Below, one piece after another: positions 4,814-54,542 of a stretch of DNA of 64,000 nucleotides. Position numbers and translations under genes: made by a program. Positions within the stretch are counted from its first letter, which is position 1; the number at the start of each line of letters is the position of its first letter. The stretch is from Amycolatopsis umgeniensis (lineage in GTDB: Bacteria; Actinomycetota; Actinomycetes; Mycobacteriales; Pseudonocardiaceae), in NCBI RefSeq assembly GCF_014205155.1, contig NZ_JACHMX010000001.1, forward strand, positions 5,084,001 through 5,148,000, written 5' to 3'. The notes under the pieces were generated by a model. The model did no database searches and was not told the origin of the DNA. It worked only from the letters and a program-made list of their open reading frames with translations.

Positions 4814-4874
4814 TCGCGTTTAGCCCGCTAAAGGCGAGTCGCCGCCGGGATCGCGTTTAGCCCGCTAAAGGCGA
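4814..4874. repeat. Two tandem copies of the TTTAGC palindromic intergenic repeat
   Basis: Copies at 4814-4837 and 4851-4874 are identical over 24 bases, with core TTTAGCCCGCTAAA flanked by GCG and GGCG. They lie just after the htpX stop codon and before a divergent-function gene pair. They belong to a dispersed family found at 14 places in this window. Confidence 0.85.
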
Positions 4875-4891
4875 GGTCGCCGGGGGTGTCT

Positions 4892-4920
4892 CACCTCGTG
4901 GGAGAGGGAATCCCGAGGTG
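4892..4920 (+). other. Leader hairpin before the LLM monooxygenase pair
   Basis: CACCTCG (4892-4898) pairs with CGAGGTG (4914-4920) around a purine-rich loop, ending 20 bases before ATG 4941. The loop contains GGGAGAGGGA and the base of the stem is close to the ribosome binding region. It may modulate translation; there is no match to a riboswitch class I can recognise. Confidence 0.3.
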
Positions 4921-4940
4921 GGCGCGGGAGTTCCCCGGGC

Positions 4941-6014
4941 ATGGGTTCCGCACAGCAGTTGCACCTCGGGGTCGCGCTCGACGGGGCCGGGCAGCACCCG
5001 GCCGCTTGGCGGGTTTCCGGCATCCGCCCGGCCGCCTTGTTCACCGCCGCCCACTACCTAGCCCACGCGAGGCTCGCCGAAGCGGCTTCGCTCGACTTCG
5101 TCACCCTCGACGACACCCTCGCGCTCCAGCCGGGCGGCGAAGAGGTCGTCCGGGGCAGGCTCGACGCGCTGCTGACCTTTGCCGCGCTGGCCCCCGTGAC
5201 CAGCGGGATCGGCCTCGTCCCGACGGTCACCACCACGCACACCGAGCCCTTCCACCTCTCGACGGCAGTCGCCTCGCTCGACTTCGCGAGCCGCGGCCGC
5301 GCCGGCGTCCTCGCGGTGCCTTCGCGCACCGAAGCCGAGGTCGCCCACTTCGGCAGGCGCACGCTGCCGTCCGAGGTGGACGCCGAAGCGGAGAATGCCG
5401 AGGTCGTCGACGTCATCGCCCGCCTCTGGGACAGCTGGGAGGACGGCGCGATCATCCGCGACGAGCCCACCGGCCGCTTCATCGATCGCGAGAAACTGCA
5501 CTACGTCGACTTCGAGGGCCGCTTCTTCAGCGTCAAGGGACCTTCGATCACGCCGCGTCCGCCGCAGGGCCACCCCGTCGTCGCGGTGTACGGCGACTCG
5601 CCGTACGCGCAGGGCGCCGAGGTCGTCCTGATCGACGAGATCCGGGACGCCCGCGTGCGCTTCCCGGGCGCCAAGCTCCTGGCCGGCCTGTCGGTCGTGC
5701 TCGCCGAGACCGAGCAGGCGGCCATCGACCGCCGTCACGCCCTGGAGGCCTACGCCCCCTTCCCCACGGGCGGCCTCAGCTTCACCGGCACCCCGGCCGA
5801 CCTCGCCGCCGAACTGCCCCGCCTCGCCGCCGCGAGCGGTCTCGACGGCTTCCACATCCGGCCCGCCGTCCTGCCCGACGACTTGGAGCTCTTCACCGCC
5901 GAGACCGTCCCCGCCCTCCAGGCCGCGGGCGTGTTCCGGCAGGCCTACACCGGCACCACCCTGCGCGACCATCTCGGCCTCGGGGTCGCCGCCAACCAGT
6001 ACGCGGAGGCGTGA
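4941..6014 (+). CDS. LLM class flavin-dependent monooxygenase
   Basis: This 357-residue luciferase-like protein has a TIM-barrel layout, with a LGVALDGAGQHPAAW start, SLDFVTLDDTLAL, and a C-terminal GVFRQAYTGTTLRDHLGL segment shared with its downstream partner. It resembles the alkanesulfonate and sulfone monooxygenase branch, which uses FMNH2 supplied by a separate reductase. No reductase gene is adjacent. Only 3 bases separate it from the NtaA-type gene at 6018, so the two form an operon. Compared with its partner it is shorter and lacks the insertion regions, so the substrates may differ. Confidence 0.8.
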   Translation: MGSAQQLHLGVALDGAGQHPAAWRVSGIRPAALFTAAHYLAHARLAEAASLDFVTLDDTLALQPGGEEVVRGRLDALLTFAALAPVTSGIGLVPTVTTTHTEPFHLSTAVASLDFASRGRAGVLAVPSRTEAEVAHFGRRTLPSEVDAEAENAEVVDVIARLWDSWEDGAIIRDEPTGRFIDREKLHYVDFEGRFFSVKGPSITPRPPQGHPVVAVYGDSPYAQGAEVVLIDEIRDARVRFPGAKLLAGLSVVLAETEQAAIDRRHALEAYAPFPTGGLSFTGTPADLAAELPRLAAASGLDGFHIRPAVLPDDLELFTAETVPALQAAGVFRQAYTGTTLRDHLGLGVAANQYAEA

Positions 6015-6017
6015 CAG

Positions 6018-7334
6018 ATGCCCAAGCAGGTCAAACTCGCCGCCCATTTCCCCGGCGTCAACAACACGACCGTGTGGAGCGACCCGCGTTCGGGTAGCCA
6101 AATCGACTTTTCGTCCTTCGAACATCTCGCGCGCACGGCCGAGCGGGGCAAGTTCGACTTCCTGTTCCTCGCCGAAGGCCTGCGCCTGCGCGAGCACGCG
6201 GGCGAGATCCTCGACTCCGACGTCGTCGGGCGGCCGAACACCACCACCGTGCTGGCCGCGCTTTCCGCGGTCACCACCCGGCTCGGCCTCGCGGGAACAC
6301 TGTCCTCGACCTTCAACGAGCCTTACGAGGTCGCGCGGCAGGTCGCGAGCATCGACCACCTCTCCGGCGGCCGCGCCGCGTGGAACGTCGTCACCTCACC
6401 GGACGCGTGGACGGGACAGAACTTCCGGCGAGGCGGCTTCCTGAAACGCGAGGACCGCTACCAGCGCGCCGAGGAATTCCTCGCCACCGTCCGCGAACTC
6501 TGGGACAGCTGGGCACCCGACGCGGTGGTGGGGGACAAGGAGAACGGTGTCTTCGCCCGCGGCATCGACCGCTTCGTCCACAAGGGACAGCAGTTCGACA
6601 TCCGCGGTGAGTTCACTGTCCCGAGGACACCGCAAGGTCAGCCGATTGTCATCCAGGCCGGGGATTCCGACGAAGGCAGGGAGTTCGCCGCCAAGACCGC
6701 CGACGTCATCTTCAGCCGCCACGGGTCGCTGGAAAGCGGCAAGGAGTTCTTCGCCGACATCAAGCGACGGCTGCCCGTCCACGGCCGCGAGCCCGGCGAG
6801 CTGCTGATCATGCCCGCCGCGACGTTCGTCCTCGGCGACACTGAGGAGGAGGCACACGAGTACGCCCGCGAGATCCGCTACCAGCAGGTGCGCCCGGCGA
6901 CCGCGATCCAGTTCCTCGAACAGGTCTGGAGCCGCGACCTCTCCGCCTACGACGCCGACGGCCCGCTACCCGAGATCGACCCGGACCCCGACGCCGAACC
7001 GCTGACCTGGGGCCGGGTCCGGCACGAGAAGGATCAGCTGGCCGTGGCCGCGAAATGGCGGGCGATCGCGGAGGAGAAGAAGCTCTCGATCCGCGAACTG
7101 GTCATCGAGGTGACCGCGCGCCAGCAGTTCGTCGGCACCGCCCGTCAGGTCGCGGACTCGGTGGACGAGTACGTCCAGAGCGACGCCGCCGACGGCTTCG
7201 TGCTGGTGCCGCATCTGACGCCGGGCGGGCTGGACGTGTTCGTCGACGAAGTCGTCCCTCATCTGCAGGAACGCGGTGTCTTCCGGACGGACTACACCGG
7301 CGACACCCTGCGGGAGCACCTGTTCAGCCGGTAG
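6018..7334 (+). CDS. NtaA/DmoA family FMN-dependent monooxygenase
   Basis: This 438-residue protein has features of the NtaA/SnaA/DmoA family: [15 protein letters not shown] at the N-terminus, [13 protein letters not shown], the family hallmark [10 protein letters not shown] near residue 125, and a [18 protein letters not shown] strand near residue 215. Relatives oxidise nitrilotriacetate, EDTA, dibenzothiophene or dimethylsulfide with reduced FMN. It probably acts in sulfur or carbon scavenging together with the preceding LLM enzyme. Its stop codon overlaps the convergent rmlA stop by 11 bases. Confidence 0.88.
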
Positions 7335-8205
7335 CGCCCTGGGAGCGGGCGACGTTCATCAGGTATTCGCCGTAGCCGGACTTCGCCAGCTTCGCACCGA
7401 GCGCGAAACACTGGTCGGCGTCGATGAAGCCCATCCGCAGCGCGACCTCCTCGAGACAGGCGATCCGGACGCCCGTCCGGTGCTCGAGGACCTGCACGAA
7501 CTGGCCCGCTTCCAGCAGCGAGTCGTGCGTGCCGGTGTCGAGCCACGCGAACCCGCGGCCGAGGTCGACCAGGGTCGCGCGGTCCTGCCGCAGGTAGGCG
7601 AGGTTGACGTCCGTGATCTCGAGTTCGCCCCGCGGCGAGGGCTTGAGCTCGCGGGCGATCTCGACGACCTGGTTGTCGTAGAAGTACAGGCCGGTGATGG
7701 CCTTGTTCGACTTCGGCTTCTCGGGCTTCTCCTCGATGGAGAGGAGCTTGCCGTCGGCGTCGATCTCGCCGACGCCGTAGCGCTGCGGATCCTTCACCGG
7801 ATACCCGAACAGCACGCAGCCGTCGAGCGCGGTCACGGCGGCTTGCAGCCTGCTGGAGAACCCCTGGCCGTAGAAGATGTTGTCACCGAGCACGAGCGCG
7901 ACCTCGTCGTCGCCGATGAAGTCCGCGCCGATGACGAACGCCTCGGCCAGCCCGTTGGGGGCGGCCTGTTCGGCGTAGCTGAAGCTGAGCCCGAACTGGC
8001 TGCCGTCGCCGAGCAGCCTGCGGAAATGCGGAAGGTCGACGGGGGTCGAGATGATCAGGATCTCGCGGATCCCGGCGAACATCAGCACCGAGATCGGGTA
8101 GTAGATCATCGGTTTGTCGTAGACCGGCAACAGCTGTTTCGAGACCGCCTGGGTGATGGGATGCAGACGCGTCCCACTTCCCCCGGCCAGCACGATGCCC
8201 TTCAT
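7324..8205 (-). CDS. rmlA: Glucose-1-phosphate thymidylyltransferase
   Basis: This 293-residue enzyme makes dTDP-glucose from dTTP and glucose-1-phosphate, the first step to dTDP-L-rhamnose and other deoxysugars. The nucleotide-binding motif [17 protein letters not shown] is at residues 8-24, followed by [23 protein letters not shown] and [10 protein letters not shown]. The length matches RmlA of the short, tetrameric type. It stands alone; the other dTDP-rhamnose genes are not in this window. Cytoplasmic. Confidence 0.95.
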
Positions 8206-8258
8206 CCGTCGCCCCCGCTTCGTAGCCGTTCGCTCGACGGCTCACACTACCGGGTGGA

Positions 8259-9407
8259 TCAGAACGCGGGGCCCTTCGCGAAGTACGCCTTGCAGCCGAG
8301 GTTGTACTCGGTGGAGATCTGCAGCACGTTCTTGCCGCCGTCGACAGGCAGCAGCGTCGAGCTGTAGTTGGGGCAGAAGTTGTTGTGGATGCCGGTGATG
8401 TGCACGGGTGCGGGCAGTTCGTACCAGTTCCCGGCGCCGAAGTTGTCGTTCGCGAGCAGGACCTGGCCGTTCTTGTCCTGGGGGACCCCGGCGGCGTTGG
8501 TGTAGATCTGCCCGACCATCACCAGCCGCACGCCGTTCGGGCCGCCGGGGAACAGCGTGATCGTCTGGGCGTGCTGGAAGTAGTTGCCGCTGGCGGTGGT
8601 GACGCGGGTGCCGGGGTCGAGCGGATCGCCCCAGTTGGCGCCGTCGGAGGAGATCTTGAAGTACGGGTCGCAGTAGCGGTTGCCGTAGTTGCAGATCTCG
8701 TAGGCCAGGTAGTACCGGCCGTCGGGGAGACGCCGGATGATCGGCATCCCCGGCCGCACCCGGTGGGGCGGGATGGCCATGGTGCGCTGCTTGGTGCCCC
8801 AGTGCACCCCGTCGGTGGAGGCGACCCGGTTCATCACCTGCGCGAACTGCGGCGCCTCGGTCTCGTCCGCGTAGTGCAACCACAGCGTGCCGCCCGCGTC
8901 GACGACGAACTCCGGCTCCCAGATGCCGTCGTGGTTGTGCGAACGGGCGGCTTCGGACAGGAAGGCCCAGCTGCGGCCGGCGTCACGGCTGTACCAGATC
9001 TTGATGCCGATCCGCCGCTGCGGACCGGCGTCCTGACGGTAACTCGCGGCCCACAGCAAGGTGCCCGCGCGAAGCCTGCCGACCCGCTGCGGCAGCTCGT
9101 ACAGCGTTCCGCAGCACATGCCGTAGCGGCCGTCGCGGTCGCGAACCTCGCCGATCTTGTGGAAGCTCTGCCCCTCGTCGGTGCTTTCCATGATCGGGGT
9201 GAACTTGCCGCTGGCGTCTTCGCTGGTCAGCGACGCGAGGATGCGGCCGCGGCCGATCGCGGAATGCTCCAGGCGGATGAGCCGCGCGTACGAGCCGTAG
9301 CCGGGCACGAGCTGTTGGCGTTCCGCGGCCTGCGCGGAGGTGAACAGCGATGCGATCACGGTGAGTGACAGCGTGAGGGCGAGTGCGGAGCTGAAACGGC
9401 GCTTCAT
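8259..9407 (-). CDS. Secreted sialidase-like beta-propeller protein
   Basis: This 382-residue protein starts at ATG 9407 behind AAGGAAGG. Residues 1-28 form a Sec signal (MKRRFSSALALTLSLTVIA, then SAQA). Several Asp-box-type motifs are visible (STDEGQSFHKIG, SRDAGRSWAFL, STDGVHWG, SSDGANWGDP), which are typical of six-bladed BNR/sialidase propellers. The GH33 catalytic Arg triad and Tyr/Glu pair cannot be confirmed by eye, so glycosidase activity is uncertain. Six or more cysteines after the signal suggest disulfides. The open frame extends to 10151, but that extension is antisense to a lipoprotein gene and was rejected. Confidence 0.75.
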   Translation of the reverse strand: MKRRFSSALALTLSLTVIASLFTSAQAAERQQLVPGYGSYARLIRLEHSAIGRGRILASLTSEDASGKFTPIMESTDEGQSFHKIGEVRDRDGRYGMCCGTLYELPQRVGRLRAGTLLWAASYRQDAGPQRRIGIKIWYSRDAGRSWAFLSEAARSHNHDGIWEPEFVVDAGGTLWLHYADETEAPQFAQVMNRVASTDGVHWGTKQRTMAIPPHRVRPGMPIIRRLPDGRYYLAYEICNYGNRYCDPYFKISSDGANWGDPLDPGTRVTTASGNYFQHAQTITLFPGGPNGVRLVMVGQIYTNAAGVPQDKNGQVLLANDNFGAGNWYELPAPVHITGIHNNFCPNYSSTLLPVDGGKNVLQISTEYNLGCKAYFAKGPAF

Positions 9408-9590
9408 CGGGACCTTCCTTGAACGCGGTCGCCGGATTACAACACGGACATTTGTCCATTTCGGACTCCCGCGAAGGCGTTGCGGCAGAAACCCACGCCC
9501 GAGTGGCGTGAATCGCTCGGCCGGGTGGCCCGGTAACGCTGGGCTATCGGCCCGCGAAGATCCCATGACCGAACAGCTAGGGGGACGTAC

Positions 9591-10274
9591 GTGATCAGGC
9601 GTTTGTGCGCGGCCTTGTGCGCCGTGCTGGTGACCGCGGGCCTGGTGGCCTGCTCGCCGCCGAACACGGGCCGGATCGTCCCGCGCGCCGCGTCGGAGGG
9701 CCTGCGTGACTCCGAAACCCCGGCGCCGCCACCGCCGACGTCCACCACCACCCCGCCACCCGGCCCCCAGCCGGTGGAGACGCACTCGGGCAAGGGGAAC
9801 GCGTCGGTCCCCATGAGCTGGCCGATGCGCCTCGGCTTCGTGACCTTCGACTGCCCGAAGTGTTCCGGGCACGTCGCGGTCAACACCGAACACGAGCTGA
9901 TCGTCAACGACACCGGGCCCTACAAGGGCACGCAGTGGATCAACGACATGCCCGGCTACCAGGCGAAGACGTTCACCATCAAGGCCAACGCCGCCTGGAC
10001 GCTGACCATCACCGACGAAAGCGGCCTGCCCGTGCTGGAGCCGGGTAAAACCCTCTCGGGCAAACGCGACGCGGTCTTCTCCGTGCCCGACGCCGTCTCG
10101 GCGGTCGCCGTCAGCACCAAGGGCAACGGCAACACCGCGGTGTGGGTGCACAGCGGCGACTACTCGGATCTCCCCGTGAACCAGCTCGGCGACTACAAGG
10201 GCAGCGTGCCCGTGCCCGGCCCCGCGTACGTGTCGCTGGAAGGCGACGGGACCTGGACGATCACGGCGTCGTAG
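9591..10274 (+). CDS. Putative lipoprotein of unknown function
   Basis: This 227-residue protein starts at GTG 9591 behind AGGGGG. Residues 1-21 form a lipoprotein signal with the lipobox LVAC. A Pro/Thr-rich linker at about 47-62 follows, then a beta-rich domain containing a CPKC pair and many short strands. The CxxC pair could be a disulfide or a metal site. I do not recognise the domain. It is divergent from the sialidase-like gene across 183 bases with no clear promoter, and convergent with the YajQ gene. Confidence 0.7.
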   Translation: MIRRLCAALCAVLVTAGLVACSPPNTGRIVPRAASEGLRDSETPAPPPPTSTTTPPPGPQPVETHSGKGNASVPMSWPMRLGFVTFDCPKCSGHVAVNTEHELIVNDTGPYKGTQWINDMPGYQAKTFTIKANAAWTLTITDESGLPVLEPGKTLSGKRDAVFSVPDAVSAVAVSTKGNGNTAVWVHSGDYSDLPVNQLGDYKGSVPVPGPAYVSLEGDGTWTITAS

Positions 10275-10283
10275 CCATGACGA

Positions 10284-10316
10284 AGGCCACCTTCGGTGCT
10301 CCCGAAGGTGGCCTTG
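10284..10316. terminator. Bidirectional hairpin terminator
   Basis: A 14-bp perfect stem (10284-10297 with 10303-10316, arm AAGGCCACCTTCGG) with a five-base loop lies between the convergent lipoprotein and YajQ genes. There is no T-run, as is usual for actinobacterial terminators. Confidence 0.75.
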
Positions 10317-10328
10317 TCGGTGCCGCTG

Positions 10329-10820
10329 TCAGCGGTAGTTCGTGAACTGCAGCGCGATCTCGAAGTCCTTGCCCTTCAGCAAGGCGATCACGTCCTGCAG
10401 CTGGTCCTTCTTCTTGCCGGACACCCGCAGCTGGTCGCCCTGGATCTGCGCCTGGACGCCCTTGGGACCTTCGTCGCGGATGAACTTGGCGATCTGCTTC
10501 GCCTTGTCCGACGCGATCCCCTGCAGGATCTTGCCGCCCACCTTGTAGATCTTGCCGGACAACGCCGGCTCGTCCGCCTCGAAGGCCTTCAGGGAGATGC
10601 CGCGCTTGATCAGCTTCTCCTTGAACACCTCGACCGCCGCCAGCGCCCGCTCTTCGGTCTCCGACTCGATCGCGATCGCCTCCTCGCCGGACCAGTCGAT
10701 CTTGGTCCCGGTACCCCGGAAGTCGAACCGTGTACCGAGTTCCTTGCTGGCCTGGTTCAGGGCGTTGTCCACCTCCTGGCGATCGACCTTGCTCACCACG
10801 TCGAAAGAGGGATCCGCCAC
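10329..10820 (-). CDS. YajQ family cyclic-di-GMP/nucleotide-binding protein
   Basis: This 163-residue protein is full length for the YajQ (DUF520) family. It starts [20 protein letters not shown] and has the paired ferredoxin-like halves with [23 protein letters not shown] and [16 protein letters not shown]. Family members bind RNA or c-di-GMP and can act as transcription co-factors. A GGDEF-EAL protein is encoded at 27371, but no link between them is shown. The gene is followed, in its own direction, by the shared terminator at 10284-10316. Confidence 0.93.
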
Positions 10821-10939
10821 GTGTTCTCACACCTCGTACTCGCTTGTCAGGAGCTTCCACCCTAGCCCTGCGGAACCCGGTTGACCGGCCCGCCATGGCA
10901 TTGGGTATTCTTTCGTCTCGACCGGGCTTGCCCGGCCAC

Positions 10940-11021
10940 GGCGAGTTGCCCGAGCGGCCAAAGGGATCTGACTGTAAATCAGACGGCTACGCCTTCGGGG
11001 GTTCGAATCCCTCACTCGCCA
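10940..11021 (+). tRNA. tRNA-Tyr (GTA)
   Basis: The acceptor stem GGCGAGT (10940-10946) pairs with ACTCGCC (11014-11020), with discriminator A at 11021. The anticodon loop holds GTA at 10974-10976. The variable arm is long, as expected for bacterial tRNA-Tyr. The T-loop reads GGTTCGAATCC. The CCA end is not fully encoded. Confidence 0.95.
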
Positions 11022-11027
11022 CACCAG

Positions 11028-11066
11028 ATCGGCCCCGTGACCAGTAAACCTGGTCACGGGGCCGAT
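11028..11066 (+). terminator. tRNA-Tyr terminator
   Basis: A 17-bp perfect stem (11028-11044 with 11050-11066) with loop TAAAC directly follows the tRNA, and a short TCTGTTT tract follows it. Confidence 0.85.
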
Positions 11067-11087
11067 TCTGTTTCGTAAGCTGAGGGG

Positions 11088-11612
11088 ATGCGGCTGCTGG
11101 AACCGCCTCGGCTCTCGCCGCCGACGACGACGGTGCGCCGGTCGTGGCTGGAGGGCGAGCGGGCGGACCGCGCGGCCGACGGGGGTTCGACGGAGCTGCT
11201 GAAGCGCGCCGCCGCGGACTTCGAGCGGTTCGTCGCCGAGCGGCAGGGAGTGCTGCGGTTGTGGGGAGTTCCCGCCACCGTTCTCTGGTACGTCTCCGGC
11301 ACGCAGTACCTCGGTGAGCTCGTCATCCGTCACGAGCTGACGCCGGCGCTGGCCCGGACCGGGGGTCACATCGGGTACGGCATCGCGACTCCGTGGCGGG
11401 GGCGTGGACACGGCACCCGGATCCTGGGTGCTGGACTCGTCGAATGCCGCCGCCTCGGGCTGAGCCGGGTTCTGCTCACCTGTGACGCCGACAACACGGC
11501 TTCCCGCCGGGCCATCCTGGCCAACGGCGGGAAGCCGGACGGTCGAGTCGACGGCGAGGATCGCTTCTGGATAGCGATCGACAGGGCAGCCCCAGGTTCG
11601 GGGCCGCTCTGA
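11088..11612 (+). CDS. GNAT family N-acetyltransferase
   Basis: This 174-residue protein has the acetyl-CoA binding motif GYGIATPWRGRGHGTRIL near residues 98-115 and a following SRVLLTCDADNTASRRAI strand-helix typical of GNAT motif B. The C-terminal segment GGKPDGR closes the fold. The substrate (small molecule or protein N-terminus) is unknown. It starts at ATG 11088 just after the tRNA-Tyr terminator and is convergent with the gene at 11622. Confidence 0.85.
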   Translation: MRLLEPPRLSPPTTTVRRSWLEGERADRAADGGSTELLKRAAADFERFVAERQGVLRLWGVPATVLWYVSGTQYLGELVIRHELTPALARTGGHIGYGIATPWRGRGHGTRILGAGLVECRRLGLSRVLLTCDADNTASRRAILANGGKPDGRVDGEDRFWIAIDRAAPGSGPL

Positions 11613-11621
11613 GCAGACGGC

Positions 11622-12623: not shown

Positions 12624-12632
12624 CGAAGTCTC

Positions 12633-13506: not shown

Positions 13507-13524
13507 GACCCGGTGAAGCGGCGA

Positions 13525-14088: not shown

Positions 14089-14128
14089 GAGCCCGACAGT
14101 ACCGCCGCCCTCCGACAAGAATGGACCG

Positions 14129-25017: not shown

Positions 25018-25244
25018 CCCCACCCCTCCGATCTCTGCGCCCCAACGCGTCGCGTTTAGCCCGCTAAACGCGACGCGACGCGGGTAGGCATCGGATGTTT
25101 CGAGTCGGGCGGACGTCGCGAAAGCCACTTTCGAGACGTCAGGTGTCCCGAAAGTGGCTTTCGCGACACCCGGCCCCCTTTGTGCCCCACCCCTCCGATC
25201 TCCGCGCCCCAAAGCGTCGCGTTTAGCCCGCTAAACGCGACGCG
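25018..25244. repeat. Duplicated 60-base element with palindromes around a hairpin
   Basis: Bases 25018-25077 and 25185-25244 are direct repeats with two mismatches in 60. Each contains the TTTAGC palindrome (25050-25073 and 25217-25240). Between them a 19-bp perfect hairpin has arms 25115-25133 and 25149-25167 (AAAGCCACTTTCG). The whole 335-base gap 24930-25264 holds no open gene that I can support. Confidence 0.8.
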
Positions 25245-38805: not shown

Positions 38806-38865
38806 TCGCCTTTAGCGGGCTAAACGCGATCCGGCGGGCACTCGCCTTTAGCGGGCTAAACGCGA
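38806..38865. repeat. Two copies of the TTTAGC palindromic repeat
   Basis: Copies at 38806-38829 and 38842-38865 are in the opposite orientation to those at 4814 (TCGCC-TTTAGCGGGCTAAA), 36 bases apart, just after the hydrolase stop. The same paired layout and spacing (37 bases) is seen at 4814/4851. Confidence 0.85.
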
Positions 38866-39763: not shown

Positions 39764-39787
39764 TCGCGTTTAGCGGGCTAAACGCGA
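39764..39787. repeat. TTTAGC palindromic repeat upstream of the rplJ leader
   Basis: A single copy with perfect GCGTTTAGC/GCTAAACGC arms lies between the divergent membrane-protein gene and the rplJ leader. Confidence 0.85.
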
Positions 39788-39839: not shown

Positions 39840-40030
39840 GTTCTACCGAAGACCGCTGGTCTTCTCCTGGTCATCTGGCCTGGAGAACGAAGGCCCCGCT
39901 AGGGCGGGCGACCCGCGCAGGAGGAACGAGGCTCGCCCGCGACGTACTTTGTCGCGTGCCCTGACGCCCCGCGCCTGTCTGCGCTGGGGCGTTTCGTCGT
40001 TTCAGGGCTCTCAAGGCCAGTGGACCACTA
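39840..40030 (+). promoter_or_regulatory. Structured rplJ leader with possible attenuator
   Basis: About 200 bases of untranslated leader precede rplJ. It contains several short stems and a GC-rich hairpin near 39964-39992 (ACGCCCCGCGC with GCGCTGGGGCGT) followed by TTTCGTCGTTT, like an intrinsic terminator. By analogy to L10 leaders, L10-L12 binding to this leader would regulate the operon. I could not fold it in full, so the boundaries are approximate. Confidence 0.5.
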
Positions 40031-40049
40031 GCCAAGAGAGGAGGCGACC

Positions 40050-41132: not shown

Positions 41133-41280
41133 TCGACTTTAGCCCCCTAATCGCGACGCGTAGCCACGCTAAGCATCCGAGCGAGCCGAGGGCGCCGGAT
41201 CGCGTTTAGCCCGCTAAAGGCGCTCCAGGGGGCGGCCCGGCGCGACCCCCGCTGACCTGCGTTTAGCGGGCTAAACGCGA
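41133..41280. repeat. Three TTTAGC-type palindromic repeats upstream of the mce operon
   Basis: Copies lie at 41133-41156 (variant core TTTAGCCCCCTAAT), 41200-41223 and 41257-41280. They sit in the 518-base gap between rplL and the Mkl gene. Apart from them and the rplL terminator, the gap from 41281 to 41557 holds no recognisable gene. An inverted pair of GTGCAC hexamers at 41340-41345 and 41362-41367 may be an operator for the mce operon; no certain promoter is seen. Confidence 0.8.
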
Positions 41281-46830: not shown

Positions 46831-47813
46831 AGTCGTTCCAGAAACGCAATCCGATCCCGATCGCGCTGGTCGGCATCTCGGTGCTGCTGCTCGGTTTCCT
46901 CGCCGCGCTCAACTCCGAGGACCTGCCGGTGATCGGCGGCGGCACCACCTACACCGCGGACTTCAGCGAGGCTTCCGGCCTCCAGCAGGACAACGACGTC
47001 CGGGTCGCCGGGGTGAAGGTCGGCAAGATCTCCGAGATCAAGCTCGACGGCGACAAGGTCCGGATCTCCTTCAAGGTCAAGGACGCCTGGCTGGGCGACA
47101 AGACCAGCGCGGCGATCAAGATCAAGACGGTGCTCGGCCAGAAGTACCTGGCGCTCGACCCGCAGGGTCAGCGCACGCTCGACCCGAGCGCGACCATCCC
47201 GCGTGAGCGCACGATGTCGCCGTTCGACGTCCTCGACGCCTTCCGCGGGCTTTCGCAGACTGTCGACGACATCGACACGACGCAGCTGGCGAAGAGCTTC
47301 GACGTCATCACGGAGACCTTCGCCGACACCCCGGCTGACGTGAAGGGCGCGCTGAACGGCCTTTCCCGCCTCTCGGACACCATCGCCAAACGTGACTCGC
47401 AGCTGTCGAGCCTGCTCGCGAACACGCGACAGGTTTCGCAGACGCTCGTCGACCGTGACGCCGAGTTCCAGAAGCTCCTGTCCGACGGCAACAAGCTGCT
47501 CGGGGAGGTGTCCCGGCGCAAGGACGCGATCGCCGCGCTGCTGGACGGCTCGCGCAACCTCGCCACCCAGCTCAAGGGCCTCGTCGACGACAACGACGCG
47601 CAGCTCGACCCGGTGCTCACCCAGCTCGACCAGCTGACCTCGATGTTGCAGCGCAATCAGGACGCGCTCGGCCAGGGCATCGCGCGGTTCGCACCGTTCA
47701 TCCGGGTGTTCACGAACACGATCGGCAACGGCCGCTGGTTCGACAACTACATCTGCGGACTGGTCCTGCCGTCGTTCGGCCCGATCAACGACAAGGGGTG
47801 CTACGAGAAATGA
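46827..47813 (+). CDS. mceC: MCE family protein MceC
   Basis: This 328-residue protein starts at ATG 46827, inside the mceB stop. It has an N-terminal anchor (about 10-27), the MCE domain (about 35-112: DNDVRVAGVKVGKISEIKLD, KTVLGQKYLALDPQG) and a helical region to about 290, ending in NYICGLVLP with a Cys pair. It is coupled to mceD (ATGA at 47810). Confidence 0.92.
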   Translation: MKSFQKRNPIPIALVGISVLLLGFLAALNSEDLPVIGGGTTYTADFSEASGLQQDNDVRVAGVKVGKISEIKLDGDKVRISFKVKDAWLGDKTSAAIKIKTVLGQKYLALDPQGQRTLDPSATIPRERTMSPFDVLDAFRGLSQTVDDIDTTQLAKSFDVITETFADTPADVKGALNGLSRLSDTIAKRDSQLSSLLANTRQVSQTLVDRDAEFQKLLSDGNKLLGEVSRRKDAIAALLDGSRNLATQLKGLVDDNDAQLDPVLTQLDQLTSMLQRNQDALGQGIARFAPFIRVFTNTIGNGRWFDNYICGLVLPSFGPINDKGCYEK

Positions 47814-48988
47814 GTACCCGTCTCGGAGCCGGCCTCGCACGCGGCTTCACCATCGCGATCGTGCTCGCGCTGGTCGTCGCCGGCGCGCTGTGGTGGACGC
47901 TCAAGGACGCCGGCCGCAACCACCTGACCGCCTACTTCGCCGGTGCCGTCGGCCTCTACGAGGGCAACAGCGTCCGCATGCTCGGCGTCGACATGGGCAC
48001 GATCACCAAGATCCAGCCCCTGGGCAACCAGGTCCGCGTCGATCTCGAATACGACCGTTCGGTGGCGGTGCCCGCCGACGCGAAGGCGATCATCGTGTCG
48101 CCGTCGCTGGTCAGCGACCGCTACGTGCAGCTGGCCCCGGCCTACAAGGGCGGCGCGCGGATCGCCGACGGTGCGGTCATCGGCCTCGACCGCACCGAAG
48201 TCCCCCTGGAAGTCGACGAGCTCGCCGCGAGTCTTTCGCGGGTCAGCAAGTCGCTCGGCCCCAACGGCGCCAACAAGAACGGTTCGCTGTCGAACCTGCT
48301 CGACACCGCCGCGAAGAACTTCGACGGCAACGGGCAGGCGCTGCACGACACGATCACGAAACTCGGCCAGGCCGCGGGCACGTTGTCCGGCAACAAGGAC
48401 GACCTGTTCAAGACCGTCGAGAACCTCGGCTCCTTCTCGCAGACGCTGGTGAACAGCGACTCGCAGGTCCGCGACTTCGAGCGGCAGCTCGCCGACGTCA
48501 GCGGTTTCCTCGCGGGGGAGCGGGAGAACCTCGCGGCCACGGTGAAGCAGCTGTCCGACACACTCACCGCGGTGCAGGGCTTCATCGAGAAGAACCGCGA
48601 CCGGCTCAAGTCCAATGTGGACAAGCTGGCCAGCGTGACCAAGGTGCTCGTGGACCAGCGCGGCGCGCTCGCCGAGATCCTCGACGTCGCCCCGGTCGGC
48701 CTCGGGAACCTGGTCAACACCTACAACGCCTCGTCGGGAACGCTCGACGCGCGGGCGAACCTCAATGAGCTCACCCAGCCGCCGCTGGTGATGGTGTGCA
48801 ACCTGCTCAAGCAGACCCCGGACGCGCTCGACGCGCTGGGCGACGCGTGCAAGGGGATCGCCGGACTGGTCGACGGGCTGGTGCCGCTGCCGTCGATCGC
48901 GCAGGTGATCCAGTCCTCGCAGGCGGGCCAGCTGCCGCCGCTTCCGCTGCCCATCGCGGGCCAGCTCTACGGATCGGCGGCGAAGTGA
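47810..48988 (+). CDS. mceD: MCE family protein MceD
   Basis: This 392-residue protein has an anchor (about 10-30), an MCE domain (about 38-115: GNSVRMLGVDMGTITKIQ, SPSLVSDRYVQLAP) and a long helical segment rich in NxxDLxxTVxxLxxF repeats, ending with a Pro-rich tail. It overlaps mceC and overlaps mceE by one base (TGATG at 48986). Confidence 0.92.
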   Translation: MSTRLGAGLARGFTIAIVLALVVAGALWWTLKDAGRNHLTAYFAGAVGLYEGNSVRMLGVDMGTITKIQPLGNQVRVDLEYDRSVAVPADAKAIIVSPSLVSDRYVQLAPAYKGGARIADGAVIGLDRTEVPLEVDELAASLSRVSKSLGPNGANKNGSLSNLLDTAAKNFDGNGQALHDTITKLGQAAGTLSGNKDDLFKTVENLGSFSQTLVNSDSQVRDFERQLADVSGFLAGERENLAATVKQLSDTLTAVQGFIEKNRDRLKSNVDKLASVTKVLVDQRGALAEILDVAPVGLGNLVNTYNASSGTLDARANLNELTQPPLVMVCNLLKQTPDALDALGDACKGIAGLVDGLVPLPSIAQVIQSSQAGQLPPLPLPIAGQLYGSAAK

Positions 48989-50187
48989 TGCGGAAACTCG
49001 CTCTGGTGGCCTGCGGAACCGTCGCCGCGCTGACGTTGAGCGGCTGCGGGTTCAGCGGGATCTACGACATCCCGCTGCCCGGCGGCGCCGAACTCGGCGA
49101 CCACCCGTACACGGTCAAGGTGCAGTTCCGGGACGTGCTGGACCTGACCCCGCAGGCCGGGGTGAAGGTCAACGAGGTCTCCATCGGCCGCGTCGAAGCG
49201 ATCGGGCTGACCCAGGACGGCTGGAACGCCGAGGTCACCCTCCGGGTCAACGGTGACGTGAAACTGCCGGCGAACGCGCTGGCCAACGTCAAGCAGTCGA
49301 GCCTCCTCGGTGAGAAGTACGTCGAGCTGGCCGCGCCCGCCGACGGGCAGGGCAAGCTCGCCGACAACGCGGTGATCCCGCTGGCCCGCACGAACCGCAG
49401 CGTCGAGGTCGAGGAACTGCTCGGCGCGCTTTCGCTGCTGCTCAACGGCGGTGGGGTCGAGCAGCTCAACACGATCACCAAGGAACTCAACAACGCCACC
49501 AGCGGCCGTTCGCCGGAGCTCAAGGCGCTGCTGAACAACACCAACCAGCTGGTCACGAACCTGGACAGGCAGTCCGCGAACATCACGCGGGCGCTCGACG
49601 GGCTGAACCGGCTCTCGCTCACGCTGAACGGCCAGAAGGACAAGCTGGTCGGCGCGGTCGACAACCTCGGACCCGGCCTCGGTGTGCTGGAGCAGCAGCG
49701 CGGCCAGCTGGTGACGATGCTGAACGCGCTCAACAACCTTTCCGGCGTCGCCATCGACACGGTGAACAAGAGCAAGGAAGACCTCGTCGCCGACCTCAAG
49801 GCGCTGCAGCCGACGCTGCAGAAGCTCGGCGAGGCGGGCTCGGATCTGCCCAAGGCGCTGGAGATCCTGTTGACCTTCCCGTTCAGCGACGCCGCCTACG
49901 ACGGCGTCAAGGGTGACTACTTCAACCTGTTCGCGAAGGTCGATCTGAACCTGAACGAGATCCTGAAGAACCTCGGCCGAAGCCGGCAGAACCCGCTCCA
50001 GGACGTCATCCCGGTGCCGGGACTGACCGGCGGGACCGAGGGGCCGGGCGTGAACCCGCCGCTGCCGATCCCCGACAGCGTCGGCGGTGTTTCCGGTAGC
50101 CAGGCCGGTGCGCCGCAGGGCGGCGGGCAGCCGCAACAGACCGGGCCCGCCGGGATCTTCGGCCTGCTGTCGGGAGGTGCGGGCTGA
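48988..50187 (+). CDS. mceE: MCE family lipoprotein MceE
   Basis: This 399-residue lipoprotein (LprK type) has signal and lipobox LTLSGC (Cys near residue 20), then the MCE domain (about 40-120, with AGVKVNEVSIGRVEAIGL and SSLLGEKYVELAAP) and a helical C-terminal part with a Gln/Gly/Pro-rich tail. The lipid anchor replaces the membrane helix of the other Mce subunits. It is coupled to mceF (TGATG at 50185). Confidence 0.92.
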   Translation: MRKLALVACGTVAALTLSGCGFSGIYDIPLPGGAELGDHPYTVKVQFRDVLDLTPQAGVKVNEVSIGRVEAIGLTQDGWNAEVTLRVNGDVKLPANALANVKQSSLLGEKYVELAAPADGQGKLADNAVIPLARTNRSVEVEELLGALSLLLNGGGVEQLNTITKELNNATSGRSPELKALLNNTNQLVTNLDRQSANITRALDGLNRLSLTLNGQKDKLVGAVDNLGPGLGVLEQQRGQLVTMLNALNNLSGVAIDTVNKSKEDLVADLKALQPTLQKLGEAGSDLPKALEILLTFPFSDAAYDGVKGDYFNLFAKVDLNLNEILKNLGRSRQNPLQDVIPVPGLTGGTEGPGVNPPLPIPDSVGGVSGSQAGAPQGGGQPQQTGPAGIFGLLSGGAG

Positions 50188-51452
50188 TGCTGGTCAAAAG
50201 GACGAAGCTCCAGTTGGTCGCCTTCGCGATCATCTCCGTCGTCGCCATCGTGTACGCCCTGATCCGGTTCGCCGGACTCGGCCAGGTCTTCGGCGACGAG
50301 GGCTACACGGTGAAACTCGAGCTCAAGGAGTCGGGCGGCATCTTCCAGAACGCCGAGGTCACCTACCGCGGCTTCAACATCGGCCGGGTCGGCGAGCTGC
50401 GCCTGACCAAGACCGGGCTGGAAGCCGACCTCAACATCGCGCCGGACGCCCCCGCCGTGCCCAGCGACCTCGACGCGGTGGTCGCGAACCGGTCGGCGGT
50501 CGGCGAGCAGTTCGTCGACCTGCGGCCCAAGAGCGAGAAGGGGCCGTTCCTGAAGCCGGGATCGGTCATCCCCGCCGACAAGGTCAAGACGCCGGTGCCC
50601 ACCGAACAGCTCATCGGCGACCTCGACAGCCTCGCGGCGTCGGTGCCGACGGATTCGCTGCGCAAGGTCGTCGACGAGTCGTACAACGCCTTCAACGGCA
50701 CCGGCCCGGATCTGCAGCGGCTGCTCGACACCGCGCGCAGTTTCACCACCACCGCGCAGGAGTACCTGCCGCAGACCATCCAGCTGCTGGAAAAGGGCGG
50801 GCAGGTCCTAGACACGCAGAACGACATGGCGAGCTCGATGAAGTCGTTCAGCGCGGACTTGAACAAACTGTCCGGCACGCTGAAGAACTCCGACGCCGAC
50901 ATCCGGAAGCTGATCGGGATCACCCCGCAGGTGGCGACCCAGATCAGCGAGGTGCTGGCGGAATCGGGGCCGGGGCTGGGCGCGCTGACCGCGAACCTGC
51001 TCACGACGTCGAACCTGCTGGTGACCCGGCTCGACGGGCTGGAGCAGGGCCTGGTGACCTACCCGGTGCTGGCCGCGGGCGCGAACAGCGTCGCCAACGA
51101 CGGCACCGCGCACCTGGGCCTCGCGCTCAACCTGTTCAACCCGCCTTCGTGCACCAAGGGCTACATCGGCCTCGACAAGTACCGCGAAGGCACCGACACC
51201 ACGAACCGGCCGCCGAAGGACGACGCGTACTGCGCCGAGCCGAAGGGCAGCCCGATCAACGTGCGCGGTTCGCAGAACGTGCCGTACAACGGTGTCCCGC
51301 AGATCCCGTCGCAGGGCGAGGTCGCCGCGAACGCGGGCCGGTCGGCCGAGGAACTGGCCGCGCTGCGGGCGGCGCAGGGCATGCCGAGCGTCCTGCAGAG
51401 CCCGGGCGTCAGCCTGGCCAGCCTCGGGTCGCTGCTGGGCCTGCCCGGCTGA
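50187..51452 (+). CDS. mceF: MCE family protein MceF
   Basis: This 421-residue protein has an anchor (about 10-28), the MCE domain (about 38-115: QNAEVTYRGFNIGRVGELRL, NRSAVGEQFVDLRP), a helical region, a Cys-containing segment near 318-345 and an Ala/Gly-rich end. It is the last ring subunit of the operon. The 31-base gap to the Mce-associated gene is the first break in coupling. Confidence 0.92.
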   Translation: MLVKRTKLQLVAFAIISVVAIVYALIRFAGLGQVFGDEGYTVKLELKESGGIFQNAEVTYRGFNIGRVGELRLTKTGLEADLNIAPDAPAVPSDLDAVVANRSAVGEQFVDLRPKSEKGPFLKPGSVIPADKVKTPVPTEQLIGDLDSLAASVPTDSLRKVVDESYNAFNGTGPDLQRLLDTARSFTTTAQEYLPQTIQLLEKGGQVLDTQNDMASSMKSFSADLNKLSGTLKNSDADIRKLIGITPQVATQISEVLAESGPGLGALTANLLTTSNLLVTRLDGLEQGLVTYPVLAAGANSVANDGTAHLGLALNLFNPPSCTKGYIGLDKYREGTDTTNRPPKDDAYCAEPKGSPINVRGSQNVPYNGVPQIPSQGEVAANAGRSAEELAALRAAQGMPSVLQSPGVSLASLGSLLGLPG

Positions 51453-51483
51453 GCCCGAGACCGTATACCTACCCTGGAGTGTC

Positions 51484-52005
51484 ATGAGTTCTTCTCGATC
51501 GCGGACCCTGGTCCTGGGCGCGGCGGCGTTCGCGCTCGCCGCCTTCGTCGCAGCGGCGATCTTCGGGGTCCAGTGGGCCGTGGCCGCTTCGGACGACAAC
51601 GCCGACCTCGCGCGCTCGCGGGACGACGTGGTCAAGGCGGGCGGCACCGCGATCAAGGCGTACACCGAGGTCGACTTCGAGAACCTCGACGAGTTCTTCA
51701 ACCGGCAGAAGGCCGTCTCCGACGACAAGATGAGCCAGCAGCTGGCCCAGTTGGAGCCGACCTACCGCAAGGCGCTCGGCGACGCGAAGACCAAGGTCGC
51801 GACCACGATCCAGGACATCGCCGTCGAGGAACTCGACGACCACGAGGGCAAGGCGAGTTTCCTCGCCGCCATCACCACCCAGGTCACCCAGGGCGACAAG
51901 GCGAGTTCGAAGGCGCTGCGCCTGGAGGTCTCGATGACCAGGGTCGGCGATGAGTGGAAGCTGTCCGGGATCGACAACGTGCCCCTCGTCGCGGCCGGTC
52001 AGTAA
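51484..52005 (+). CDS. Mce-associated membrane protein 1
   Basis: This 173-residue protein has one membrane helix near residues 9-33 and an external NTF2-like domain (about 40-170, with DEFFNRQKAVSDDKM and LRLEVSMTRVGDEWKLSGID). Such Mas proteins stabilise or assist Mce complexes in mycobacteria. It starts at ATG 51484 and is probably co-transcribed with mceF. Confidence 0.85.
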   Translation: MSSSRSRTLVLGAAAFALAAFVAAAIFGVQWAVAASDDNADLARSRDDVVKAGGTAIKAYTEVDFENLDEFFNRQKAVSDDKMSQQLAQLEPTYRKALGDAKTKVATTIQDIAVEELDDHEGKASFLAAITTQVTQGDKASSKALRLEVSMTRVGDEWKLSGIDNVPLVAAGQ

Positions 52006-52032
52006 GAGCGTCACCTAGAACGGAGCCCCGTA

Positions 52033-52998
52033 GTGCCCCCCTCCCGTCGCCAGCCCCCTCGCAGCACTCCGCCGGTGCGCCGCCCCCGGGTGGCCGGTCT
52101 GCGACGGCCCGGTGCGTCTCCTGTCGATGAGGCTCCCGAGGTCTCCGCTCCCGAGGTCGAGGTCGAGGTCGACGAAACGCCGGCGCCGGTTCGCCGTCCG
52201 TCGCCGCGGCCCGCTCCGCGTCCTGCGCCTGAACCCGAGCCTGAGGAAGCCGTCGTCGACGCTCCTGAAGAGGTCGAGGAGGCTCCCGAAGACGAGGTTG
52301 TCGCGAAGCCGAGCCCGCGCGCGAAGGCCCCTGCGGTCGCGGAGGAGAAGCCGGACGACCTCGAAGAGGCCGAAGCCGAGGCCGCTTCCGAAGCCTCTGA
52401 GTCAGAGTCCGAGAAGAAGCCAGGCTCTCGCCAGCTGATCCTGGCGGGCGCGCTGGTCGTCGTCGGGCTGCTGCTGGCCGCGACAGCGGTGCTCTTCCAT
52501 CTCAAGGCTTCCGAGGTGTCGAGCTCGACGGACAACACGGCGCTGCTGGACGTCGCGAAGACCGCGCAGGTCAAGGACCAGGTCGCGAAGGCGACCGAGG
52601 CGCTCTTCTCGTACGACTACAAGAACATCGCGAAGACGGAGACCGCGGCGGGCGATCTGCTGGTCAACGACGAGGTGCGGGCGAAGTACAACCTGCTGAT
52701 GGGCGAGGTCAAGCGACTGGCCCCGCAGCAGAAGATGGTCGTGACCTGCAAGGTCACCCGCAGCGCCGTCATCCGGCTGGAGGGCGACAGGGCCGACGTG
52801 ATGGTCTTCGTCGACCAGAGTTCGACTCGGGCCGACACGAACAAGACCACCGCCGGGAGCGCGCAGCTGCATTTGAACGCGGAGCTGCAGGGCGACAAGT
52901 GGAAGATCACGGCGATGAACACCTACGCCGCTCCGCCCAACCCGGCCGCCTCCTCGGCTCCCGCCGCACCCCCCGCTTCGCCTGCGCCCTCCAAGTAG
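52033..52998 (+). CDS. Mce-associated membrane protein 2
   Basis: This 321-residue protein starts at GTG 52033. The first 130 residues are a Pro/Glu/Arg-rich low-complexity cytoplasmic tail, then a membrane helix near residues 134-154, then an NTF2-like external domain (about 165-300, with KTETAAGDLLVNDEVRAKYN). The C-terminus is Ala/Pro-rich. It is a second Mas-type accessory, 27 bases after the first. Confidence 0.83.
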   Translation: MPPSRRQPPRSTPPVRRPRVAGLRRPGASPVDEAPEVSAPEVEVEVDETPAPVRRPSPRPAPRPAPEPEPEEAVVDAPEEVEEAPEDEVVAKPSPRAKAPAVAEEKPDDLEEAEAEAASEASESESEKKPGSRQLILAGALVVVGLLLAATAVLFHLKASEVSSSTDNTALLDVAKTAQVKDQVAKATEALFSYDYKNIAKTETAAGDLLVNDEVRAKYNLLMGEVKRLAPQQKMVVTCKVTRSAVIRLEGDRADVMVFVDQSSTRADTNKTTAGSAQLHLNAELQGDKWKITAMNTYAAPPNPAASSAPAAPPASPAPSK

Positions 52999-53010
52999 CG
53001 CCGCCGGGAC

Positions 53011-53080
53011 CTGCGTTTAGCCCGCTAATCGCGATCCGGTGCGCTGGGTGCCCGGACCTGCGTTTAGCGGGCTAACGCGA
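53011..53080. repeat. Two TTTAGC palindromic repeats after the mce operon
   Basis: Copies lie at 53011-53034 (one arm ends CTAATCGCGA) and 53058-53080 (shortened by one base), in the 104-base gap after the mce operon and before the convergent gene at 53103. Confidence 0.8.
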
Positions 53081-53102
53081 CGCGTGGGCGCGTCGACCTG
53101 GG

Positions 53103-54335
53103 TTACGCGCCCTGGGATCGGAGCTTGAAGCTCGCCGTCCGCGCCTTCTTGGCCGTCGCCCGGTCCGGATGCTTCTGGCCGACCACGTCCAGGAGTTCGC
53201 GCGTGGCCGGGTGGCCGGAGGACGTCAGCAGATCGACCACGTCGAAGCCGTCGTCCAAGCCGGCGAGCTGATGGACGAACGAGCCGAGCACGTGCATGGC
53301 CGCGAAGTGGTCGGTCATCCCGACGGCGACTTCCTCGCGGGTGATCGTTTCGCGCCGGACCGCTCCGCGCTCGGACAGCCACATCGCGGCGACGGCGCCG
53401 GGCACACCGCCCTCGGCGCGGACTCCGGCCGCGGCTTCGAGACCGCGCGTGCCGGTGGCCCCGAGCGCGATCAGAGCGAAGAGCCGCCCCTCAGGACGCG
53501 TCGTGGTCCGGAGGAACTCAGTCGCTTCCTCGATCGCGGCGGAGGGCGATCGGTGCCGGGCCCAGGCCTGCAGCTCGGCCTCCGAGGTCGCCGGTGCGGC
53601 GCCGACGAGGTCCGAACACAGGCTGTCGAGACTTTCGTCCGCGGACTCACCGACGACCGGCGCGTTCGCCCCGGCCGCGCGGAGTTCCCGGTTGATCGCC
53701 CACACCGCGATCGGGGTGAGCCAGATCATCGCCGGTGACGGGCTGGGGTCGCCCGTGACCTTGGCGACCGACGTGAGTTCGGCCGGATCCGCGACGCCCT
53801 GATGGAGGGCGCCGAGCCGTTCCAGGAGGTCCAGCGTGACCGCCACCGCGTGGCGCGTCGACTCGCCCGGTTCGAGGCCGAGCAGTGCCGTCAGGACCTC
53901 GGGGAGGAGGTCGACGGGAACCGGGGCCGGGCCCGATCCGTAAAGCGTGAAAGCGATCGTCGAGACCAGCCGGGGGAGCAGCAGTTCGAAACCCGGCGGC
54001 ACGCCGTCGTCCTCGGCGACGAAGCCGGGCCCGGTCTCGCCGATCGTCAGGTACGCCCGCTCCCAGAGCTCGACAGGGCTGTCGAGGAGGTTCGCGTTCT
54101 CCTCGACGGCTATGTGCGCACCGTCGGAGACGCGGACCAGTCCGCAGGCTTCGGCCCAGCGAGGGATCAGCGCGCCGTCCTCCGCTTCGCCGGGACGGCC
54201 CACAGCGGCGACGTAGCGGCGGAGGTCCTTCAGAACCAGGCTCTGCTCCGCGGCGATCCGCAGTTCGGCCTCCGGCGGCAGAACGACCGCGGGCATCGTC
54301 GGCGGCGCGTCGGACTCGGGCCTCTGCTCGTTCAT
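53103..54335 (-). CDS. Uncharacterised 410-residue protein
   Basis: This soluble, Ala/Leu-rich protein is mostly helical with no signal, membrane segment or known motif. The N-terminal part has a LRRYVAAVGRPG segment, and the C-terminal part ends with a basic RATAKKARTASFKLRSQG tail. It starts at ATG 54335. It sits alone between the mce operon and rpoB, convergent with the mce genes. It resembles plant-type or repeat proteins only loosely. I do not assign a function. Confidence 0.7.
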   Translation of the reverse strand: MNEQRPESDAPPTMPAVVLPPEAELRIAAEQSLVLKDLRRYVAAVGRPGEAEDGALIPRWAEACGLVRVSDGAHIAVEENANLLDSPVELWERAYLTIGETGPGFVAEDDGVPPGFELLLPRLVSTIAFTLYGSGPAPVPVDLLPEVLTALLGLEPGESTRHAVAVTLDLLERLGALHQGVADPAELTSVAKVTGDPSPSPAMIWLTPIAVWAINRELRAAGANAPVVGESADESLDSLCSDLVGAAPATSEAELQAWARHRSPSAAIEEATEFLRTTTRPEGRLFALIALGATGTRGLEAAAGVRAEGGVPGAVAAMWLSERGAVRRETITREEVAVGMTDHFAAMHVLGSFVHQLAGLDDGFDVVDLLTSSGHPATRELLDVVGQKHPDRATAKKARTASFKLRSQGA

Positions 54336-54362
54336 ACCGCCAGTTTCGCAGGGGCGGCCGCC

Positions 54363-54542
54363 GCGACTTTAGCCCCCTAATCGCGACTTGGGGCCGTTCC
54401 TGTGCGCCGCACCAACCAGCCCACCGGCCACAGCCGCCACAGGCCTCCACCGACCTCAGAGCGCCCCGGAACACCCCGCCCCGACCCGGTGACTCTCCAG
54501 GGCGGCCCGCCGGCCGGGTCGCGTTTAGCCCGCTAAACGCAG
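54363..54542. repeat. Two TTTAGC palindromic repeats upstream of rpoB
   Basis: Copies lie at 54363-54386 (variant core TTTAGCCCCCTAAT, as at 41133) and 54519-54542 (GCGTTTAGCCCGCTAAACGC). They are in the 639-base gap between the gene at 54335 and the rpoB start. Bases 54543-54810 show no gene that I can support. Confidence 0.8.

Follow-up and report, generated by a model that had tools for sequence, protein, structure and literature searches.

Palindromic sites around rpoB in Amycolatopsis umgeniensis

The DNA analyzed here, referred to as the window, is a stretch of 64,000 nucleotides from the single-contig genome of Amycolatopsis umgeniensis (G000, 9,225,930 bp; G000:C1:5084001-5148000) and includes lon, rplJ, rplL and rpoB. 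Scattered between its genes are copies of a palindrome with the core TTTAGC-CC/GG-GCTAAA, hereafter called sites, and genome-wide scans placed most members of this family in one chromosomal domain, a concentration that is not visible from the 64-kb window alone. A sequence-only reading of the window had reported 14 copies, all of which were present. A scan allowing up to 4 mismatches to GCGTTTAGC-NN-GCTAAACGC returned exactly those 14, with the two CCCCCTAAT variants and the copy lacking one base as described (Table 1).

All window copies are indeed outside genes according to our own crude gene finder, which was used for all context counts; across the whole domain, predicted genes contain 11 of 96 copies. 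The spacing of 36–37 bp given for paired copies is present but incomplete, as window spacings of 47, 57, 67 and 167 bp occur too.

Table 1 Sites in the window and the landmark gene rpoB. Positions count from the first letter of the window, and the strand of each site is the orientation of its CC centre.
Feature	Position	Strand	Basis
Site, tandem gap between M48 peptidase gene and luciferase-like monooxygenase gene	4814..4837	+	coordinate check, scan, gene calls
Site, 37 bp from the 4814 copy	4851..4874	+	coordinate check, scan
Site upstream of lon, between two minus-strand genes	25050..25073	+	coordinate check, scan, gene calls
Site, same gap as the 25050 copy	25217..25240	+	coordinate check, scan, gene calls
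Site, convergent gap	38806..38829	-	coordinate check, scan, relatives
Site, 36 bp from the 38806 copy	38842..38865	-	coordinate check, scan, relatives
Site, divergent gap upstream of rplJ	39764..39787	-	comparison with relatives
Site, CCCCCTAAT variant, downstream of rplL	41133..41156	+	coordinate check, scan, relatives
Site downstream of rplL	41200..41223	+	coordinate check, scan, relatives
Site downstream of rplL, upstream of ABC-transporter ATPase gene	41257..41280	-	coordinate check, scan, relatives
Site, convergent gap	53011..53034	+	coordinate check, scan, gene calls, relatives
Site with one base lost, convergent gap	53058..53081	-	coordinate check, scan
Site, CCCCCTAAT variant, divergent gap upstream of rpoB	54363..54386	+	coordinate check, scan, relatives
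Site, divergent gap upstream of rpoB	54519..54542	+	coordinate check, scan, relatives
rpoB, domain landmark; sites from about -50 to +275 kb from here in A. umgeniensis	55119..58475	+	

The sites are concentrated in one chromosomal domain

The exact pattern TTTAGCSSGCTAAA has 65 copies in the whole genome, and the reversed pattern has none. Allowing up to 2 mismatches to the 20-bp pattern, we counted 79 copies in the genome, 71 of them at 5.088–5.414 Mb, i.e. in 3.5% of the chromosome; with up to 3 mismatches there are 105 copies (control, 1), 88 of them in this domain. Within the 400 kb around the window (5.06–5.46 Mb), up to 4 mismatches gave 98 matches, compared with 5 for a reversed-core control, all of the latter with 4 mismatches. 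Two of the 4-mismatch matches (5372650, in a gene, and 5447600, outside the domain) were removed, leaving the set of 96 copies used below. These sites span about 325 kb and are densest at 5.12–5.26 Mb, with rpoB at 5.139 Mb. The domain contains rpoB, rpoC, rpoA, rplK, rplJ, rplL, rpsL, fusA and tuf, as well as rpsJ, rpsC, rpsI, infA, map, glmM, glmS and alr, and its densely occupied part is mostly common to all species compared. The parS sites and ParB itself are at 4.466–4.469 Mb, 0.62–0.95 Mb away.

Eight copies are outside the domain: a group of four at 3.770 Mb, and single copies at 3.634, 3.640, 4.155 and 4.999 Mb. The six at 3.634–3.770 Mb lie on the other chromosome arm, 0.70–0.83 Mb left of parS and hence at nearly the same distance from it as the domain; they form a possible mirror cluster. 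The four at 3.770 Mb (L001 1490–1790) follow a membrane-protein-like gene one after another, and two of them are separated by a further long palindrome, gaaggccaccttt...aaaggtggccttc; G007 has two copies at the orthologous place. Four 3-mismatch matches (3604307, 3788789, 3819681 and 1909060) share another core (TTTAG/TTCAG, AGGA/TCCT, CTAAA) and perhaps represent a second palindrome family.

Occurrence and positions in related species

The exact core was found in 31 of 80 genomes of the genus and was absent from 49. In five genomes with full copy lists and all copies on the rpoB contig (G001, G002, G004, G005 and G011), every copy lies within about 185 kb of rpoB (3/3, 8/8, 21/21, 8/8 and 4/4, respectively). 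Among the matches listed for other genomes, copies off the rpoB contig or region occur in G007 (C1, C18, C45, C53), G034 (C4, C5), G035 (C15), G028 (C20) and G014 (at 2.075 Mb). Across the family, 46 of 390 genomes in 8 of 46 genera have the exact core, one of them (G211) as a different dispersed repeat. In 10 genomes of five other genera, one cluster holds most copies among the matches listed; for G339 and G379 the assembly is fragmented or only part of the matches is listed. Of the site loci drawn from these 10 genomes, two from each, 19 of 20 carry orthologues of A. umgeniensis domain genes. G211, from another genus (L064, L065), was rejected as a family member: its 117 exact TTTAGCSSGCTAAA copies are spread over the contigs listed and two loci share a 159-bp repeat at 82%, and it is therefore regarded as carrying a separate repeat.

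Around rplJ, 80 named loci were scanned with up to 4 mismatches. At least one copy was present in 21 and at least two in 16, compared with 4 of 80 for the reversed core. Loci with at least two copies belong to the Amycolatopsis orientalis group, which includes A. umgeniensis in a tree of seven proteins from around rplJ, and to A. suaedae, A. marina, A. palatopharyngis, Prauserella muralis and Qaidamihabitans albus. On a 64-row tree, site presence (at least one copy in 20–25 kb) requires at least 8 changes. Apart from a single A. rubida match, the A. pretoriensis/A. rifamycinica and A. taiwanensis/A. sacchari groups have no copies in these 20–25 kb. This pattern would be compatible with an ancient feature and several later losses.

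Where sites are present, many positions are kept. Among the 70 combinations of seven gaps and ten close relatives, both flanks could be located in 50, and 46 of these 50 kept a site (up to 5 mismatches, leaving out one chance-like match), while half-site variants, centre direction and array number varied in the same gaps. The convergent gap with the 38806 and 38842 copies retains at least one copy at this threshold in all nine of the ten relatives in which both flanks were found, and the 39764 copy has the same position in 8 of 10, with a GG or CC centre. In the genome G059, 8 of 13 gaps that bear a site in A. umgeniensis are also occupied, compared with 2 of 52 site-less gaps (p = 1e-5).

A second palindrome of the same architecture occupies the same domain

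The rpoB region of G003, a genome with no exact copy of the first type, was searched de novo for palindromes. The top palindrome was TTTTGC-NN-GCAAAA, with the full form TGCTTYTGC-SS-GCARAAGCA, which gave 70 matches in 200 kb with up to 4 mismatches compared with 1 for the control; many of these fall in called genes. The GCTTYTGCSSGCARAAGC pattern occurs in only 4 of 80 genus genomes, with 31 to 35 copies each (control, 0). Of the carriers of GCTTYTGC-SS-GCARAAGC, G003, G054 and G058 lack an exact first-type copy and G027 has one. In total, 92 of 94 places listed (98 counted; G003, G027 and G054) fall in the interval from 17 kb upstream to 230 kb downstream of rpoB, as do 28 of 31 copies in G003 alone.

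The second type also lies partly in the same individual gaps. In G003 it occupies 4 of 14 orthologous gaps that bear a site in A. umgeniensis, compared with 0 of 69 without (p = 5e-4). Before glmS, sites stand 55, 54 and 48 bp into the gap in A. umgeniensis, G059 and G003, respectively. The map-infA and rpsI-glmM gaps hold sites of both types, are occupied in other genera too, and are empty in the site-less species shown. No such palindrome was detected by a de novo search (exact arms of 6, centre of 0–8) of 100 kb each of G008, G068, G029, G049, G060 and G022. A candidate third type, TAAAGCSSGCTTTA, is genome-wide in G071 and G079 (501 and 395 copies, respectively, with places listed for part of each genome) and was therefore set aside as a separate repeat. 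It is confined to these two of 80 genus genomes (e.g. L077, L079) and is often tandem at about 24 bp in G071.

Sites lack arm covariation and are helically phased

In the CC orientation the consensus is CGGATC-GCGWTTAGC-CC-GCTAAASKC-GM, and the 96 copies divide into 52 with a CC and 44 with a GG centre. The copies are asymmetric about the centre, the left half being mostly GCGTTTAGC (62) or GCGATTAGC (21) and the right half mostly ending in CGC, GGC or GTC. Inner pairs are almost invariant. For outer pairs, Watson-Crick counts compared with shuffled right arms were 33/96 versus 40.4 (pair 2-17), 64 versus 66.5 (1-18) and 63 versus 66.8 (3-16), and no pair out of 20 in the 96 copies lay more than about one standard deviation above the shuffled mean. 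Given this lack of arm covariation, conservation does not act on the hairpin, and an RNA hairpin was rejected.

Neighbouring sites up to 100 bp apart are spaced by 32–37, 45–47, 55–58, 67–68 or 77 bp. These distances gave a Rayleigh R of 0.80 at a best period of 10.6 bp (n = 34), a value never reached in 2000 jittered sets with shifts of up to 5 bp. Similar values were obtained for G059 (R 0.69 at 10.3 bp, n = 11, p = 0.008) and for ten relatives that are not mutually independent (R 0.75 at 10.4 bp, n = 62); the commonest spacing in other genera is 42–43 bp. The steps of about 10.5 bp hold for any relative orientation, with a phase of 3.9 bp for same and 3.8 bp for opposite orientation. In 17 pairs at 55–57 bp the spacers are nearly unrelated, with 47% identity versus 45% when shuffled (sd 0.7%), a small excess. 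Given the equal phase for both orientations and these spacers, tandem duplication alone is insufficient to explain the arrays. We read the helical phasing as proteins assembling on one face of the helix.

A proposed domain-marking protein

Taken together, the sites are best explained as putative binding sites of a sequence-specific, cooperatively binding protein that marks or organizes a chromosomal domain, a reading to which we assign a probability of roughly 0.55. The sequence-only reading had offered sites for a nucleoid or regulatory protein as one of two possibilities, and this is the better supported of the two. Each copy would be a double-stranded DNA site for the putative protein, probably a dimer reading the two TTTAGC half-sites, and the one-turn steps would let several dimers assemble cooperatively on one helix face. 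The approximately 96 sites over 325 kb would then mark the domain in which rpoBC and the ribosomal-protein operons lie with adjacent core genes, and once bound the protein may organize, anchor or insulate this domain, as MatP does on matS. A more specific proposal, which we hold tentatively and at somewhat less than even odds, is an actinobacterial macrodomain system, in which a dedicated protein in helical register on about a hundred sites makes the rpoBC/ribosomal-protein region one structural unit. Protein and site would change together (from GCGTTTAGC to TGCTTTTGC half-sites), some positions would stay, and whole clades would have lost the system.

Several observations weigh against a domain-marking protein. 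Large parts of the genus have no sites, so any function is dispensable there. Eight of the 79 copies in A. umgeniensis are outside the domain, and among the matches listed for other genera, 1/10 copies in G340, 1/10 in G328 and 3/9 in G378 are on other contigs or distant. Array copy number varies between relatives. When position sharing is split by gap type, it is significant in tandem gaps alone (p = 6e-4 and, for the G003 palindrome, 0.01), and not in convergent and divergent gaps, where numbers are small. The preference for convergent gene ends is not known to be a matS feature, and the copy at 5225966, in the alanine racemase gene, looks like an insertion (6–12 extra residues compared with all 8 orthologues). 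Finally, the binding protein was not found, and no ParB paralogue tracks the sites.

Copies inside genes and the possibility of a multiplying repeat

A comparison with relatives was possible for seven copies that lie well within genes. Three or four of them align without gaps to at least one orthologue that has no site. The ungapped orthologues are those of G008 for 5211832, of G008 and G003 for 5213227, of G059 (where the site is absent) for 5255796, and of G022 for 5200572. In further orthologues of 5211832, 5213227 and 5200572 there are gaps of 1–12 residues, and 5191226 and 5201228 are in poorly alignable segments. Because of the ungapped orthologues and the extra residues in alanine racemase, some sites appear to have formed in place and some may have been inserted.

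A rival reading is a functionless repeat, REP- or MITE-like or spread by template switching or gene conversion, that multiplied locally around rpoB and was vertically inherited. The insertion-like alanine racemase copy and the gaps in orthologues of other coding copies speak for it. The copies share blocks of 30–34 bp, the variable arrays agree with it, and the indel-free arm swaps and centre flips (CC to GG) look like the outcome of template switching or conversion. The genome-wide tandem palindrome of G071 and G079 means that such repeats do multiply in the genus. Against this, the concentration in one domain persists across genera, the phasing is independent of orientation with spacers nearly unrelated, another palindrome is found in this domain, in part within gaps used by the first, and some coding copies are ungapped relative to orthologues without a site. 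We consider a functionless repeat unlikely.

REP and BIME sequences are palindromes between genes that often lie near gene 3' ends and often form doublets. The sites resemble them in these respects, and a REP-like mobile family was the other suggestion of the sequence-only reading. The sites differ from RAYT-associated REP/BIME elements in their one-domain concentration and in that arm pairing is not conserved. In addition, the REP transposase family PF01797 had no match in any of the 80 genus genomes, with a control that was positive in 5 of 14 known genomes, E. coli included, and REP/RAYT was accordingly ruled out as far as the family model reaches.

Gene context and transcription

Of the 96 copies, 85 are intergenic. 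Convergent gaps hold 39 of them (4.41 per kb), tandem gaps 32 (1.33 per kb) and divergent gaps 14 (0.99 per kb), compared with 0.038 per kb in coding sequence, and hence the sites are neither at chance rate nor equally frequent inside genes. The convergent excess is significant (binomial p = 1e-8). Among gaps of 60 bp or more, 16 of 27 convergent ones bear a site, compared with 15 of 97 tandem and 8 of 53 divergent ones. For 30 of 56 gene 3' ends next to site-bearing gaps, the centre of the nearest site lies 12–34 bp away. In 7 of 20 site-bearing convergent gaps there is also a separate hairpin, with arms of 10 bp.

This strong preference for convergent gaps speaks for a reading of the sites as transcription roadblocks, terminators or supercoil sinks at the gene ends of a very highly transcribed domain, where a bound protein or gyrase would stop read-through or remove positive supercoils between convergent genes. 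We regard it as improbable. Forty-six of the 85 intergenic copies are in tandem or divergent gaps, and the other 96.5% of the genome holds only 8 of 79 copies. An intrinsic terminator in particular is not supported: none of the 96 copies has TTTT within 14 bp past an arm, pairing is not conserved, and the rpsI-glmM gap has its own conserved hairpin of ordinary terminator-like form, which lies upstream of the sites, in agreement with the earlier remark that a simple terminator role does not fit.

Two neighbouring features of the window were also observed. A 410-aa protein adjoining rpoB (53103-54335, minus strand) has no Pfam match; it is 87% identical in G002 and has no homologue in the compared regions of ten other species. 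Just upstream of rplJ, a stretch at about 39880-40049 is strongly conserved in ten close relatives and partly in the other species shown. It may be an L10 leader RNA; no Rfam family reached threshold there, and in the whole window Rfam at gathering scores returned only four tRNAs.

Search for a binder

Genes of the A. umgeniensis domain that are present in G059 or G003 and missing from 360 kb of G008 (taken as site-less, with one first-type match at up to 4 mismatches) were inspected by eye. None was a convincing binder, and nothing stood out except a response-regulator/sensor-like pair, g40-g41. The isolated copies (3.770, 4.155 and 4.999 Mb; G007 and G014) have no regulator gene in common. 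The 4.155-Mb copy (L005 ~1497) lies directly behind a gene judged by eye to be TetR-like and close to a MarR-like one, a weak lead to a binder.

All 80 genus genomes have a strong ParB match, and A. umgeniensis has a single ParB_N match, at 4.467 Mb in the parS cluster. Extra ParB_N matches are found both in genomes with sites and in genomes without them, showing no link to the sites, so a dedicated ParB was ruled out as far as the family model reaches. In PMC2680271, the RK2 operators are given as TTTAGC(c/g)GCTAAA for KorB (O_B) and GTTTAGCTAAAC for KorA. The sites share the TTTAGC/GCTAAA arms, with a centre of 2 bp here, 1 bp in O_B and 0 bp in O_A, but the O_B sites are plasmid-borne, and operators of a ParB/KorB-type clamp are a very improbable identity for our sites given this ParB distribution and a search that found no cognate and did not extend to KorA-type proteins.

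Comparison with known chromosomal site systems

The comparison literature comprised PMC2680271, PMC3116907 and PMC7174722. As described there, matS is a 13-bp motif with consensus GTGACRNYGTCAC and 23 copies in the Ter of E. coli (PMC3116907), SlmA-binding sites of E. coli are a 12-bp palindrome with 50 copies, none of them in Ter, and RacA of Bacillus subtilis binds the oriC-proximal part of the chromosome. Like matS in these accounts, our sites are a short palindrome repeated many times in one chromosomal domain. The sequence GCGWTTAGC-CC-GCTAAASKC is unrelated to that matS consensus. The MatP domain surrounds the replication terminus, whereas the domain here is at ribosomal-protein genes 0.62–0.95 Mb from the parS cluster, and our sites have about four times more copies, helically phased arrays, a gene-end preference and a lineage-specific sequence. 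The SlmA and RacA sites, so far as these sources describe them, share the biased chromosomal distribution but are in other chromosomal regions, and the SlmA consensus is unrelated. The closest known kind is a macrodomain site, which by sequence and location is not matS, and the family most likely works like a domain marker read by a putative protein. Six exact site strings had no occurrence in the open-licence PMC literature searched (subscription literature being outside its scope), and no description of the family was found there.

Domain-specific site systems have been described for E. coli (matS and SlmA sites) and Bacillus (RacA). If our reading is true, this site family of antibiotic-making soil actinomycetes, concentrated around the genes for ribosomal proteins and RNA polymerase and kept in that domain across several genera while some species have replaced its sequence, would offer a new way into how the most transcribed region of bacterial chromosomes is organized.

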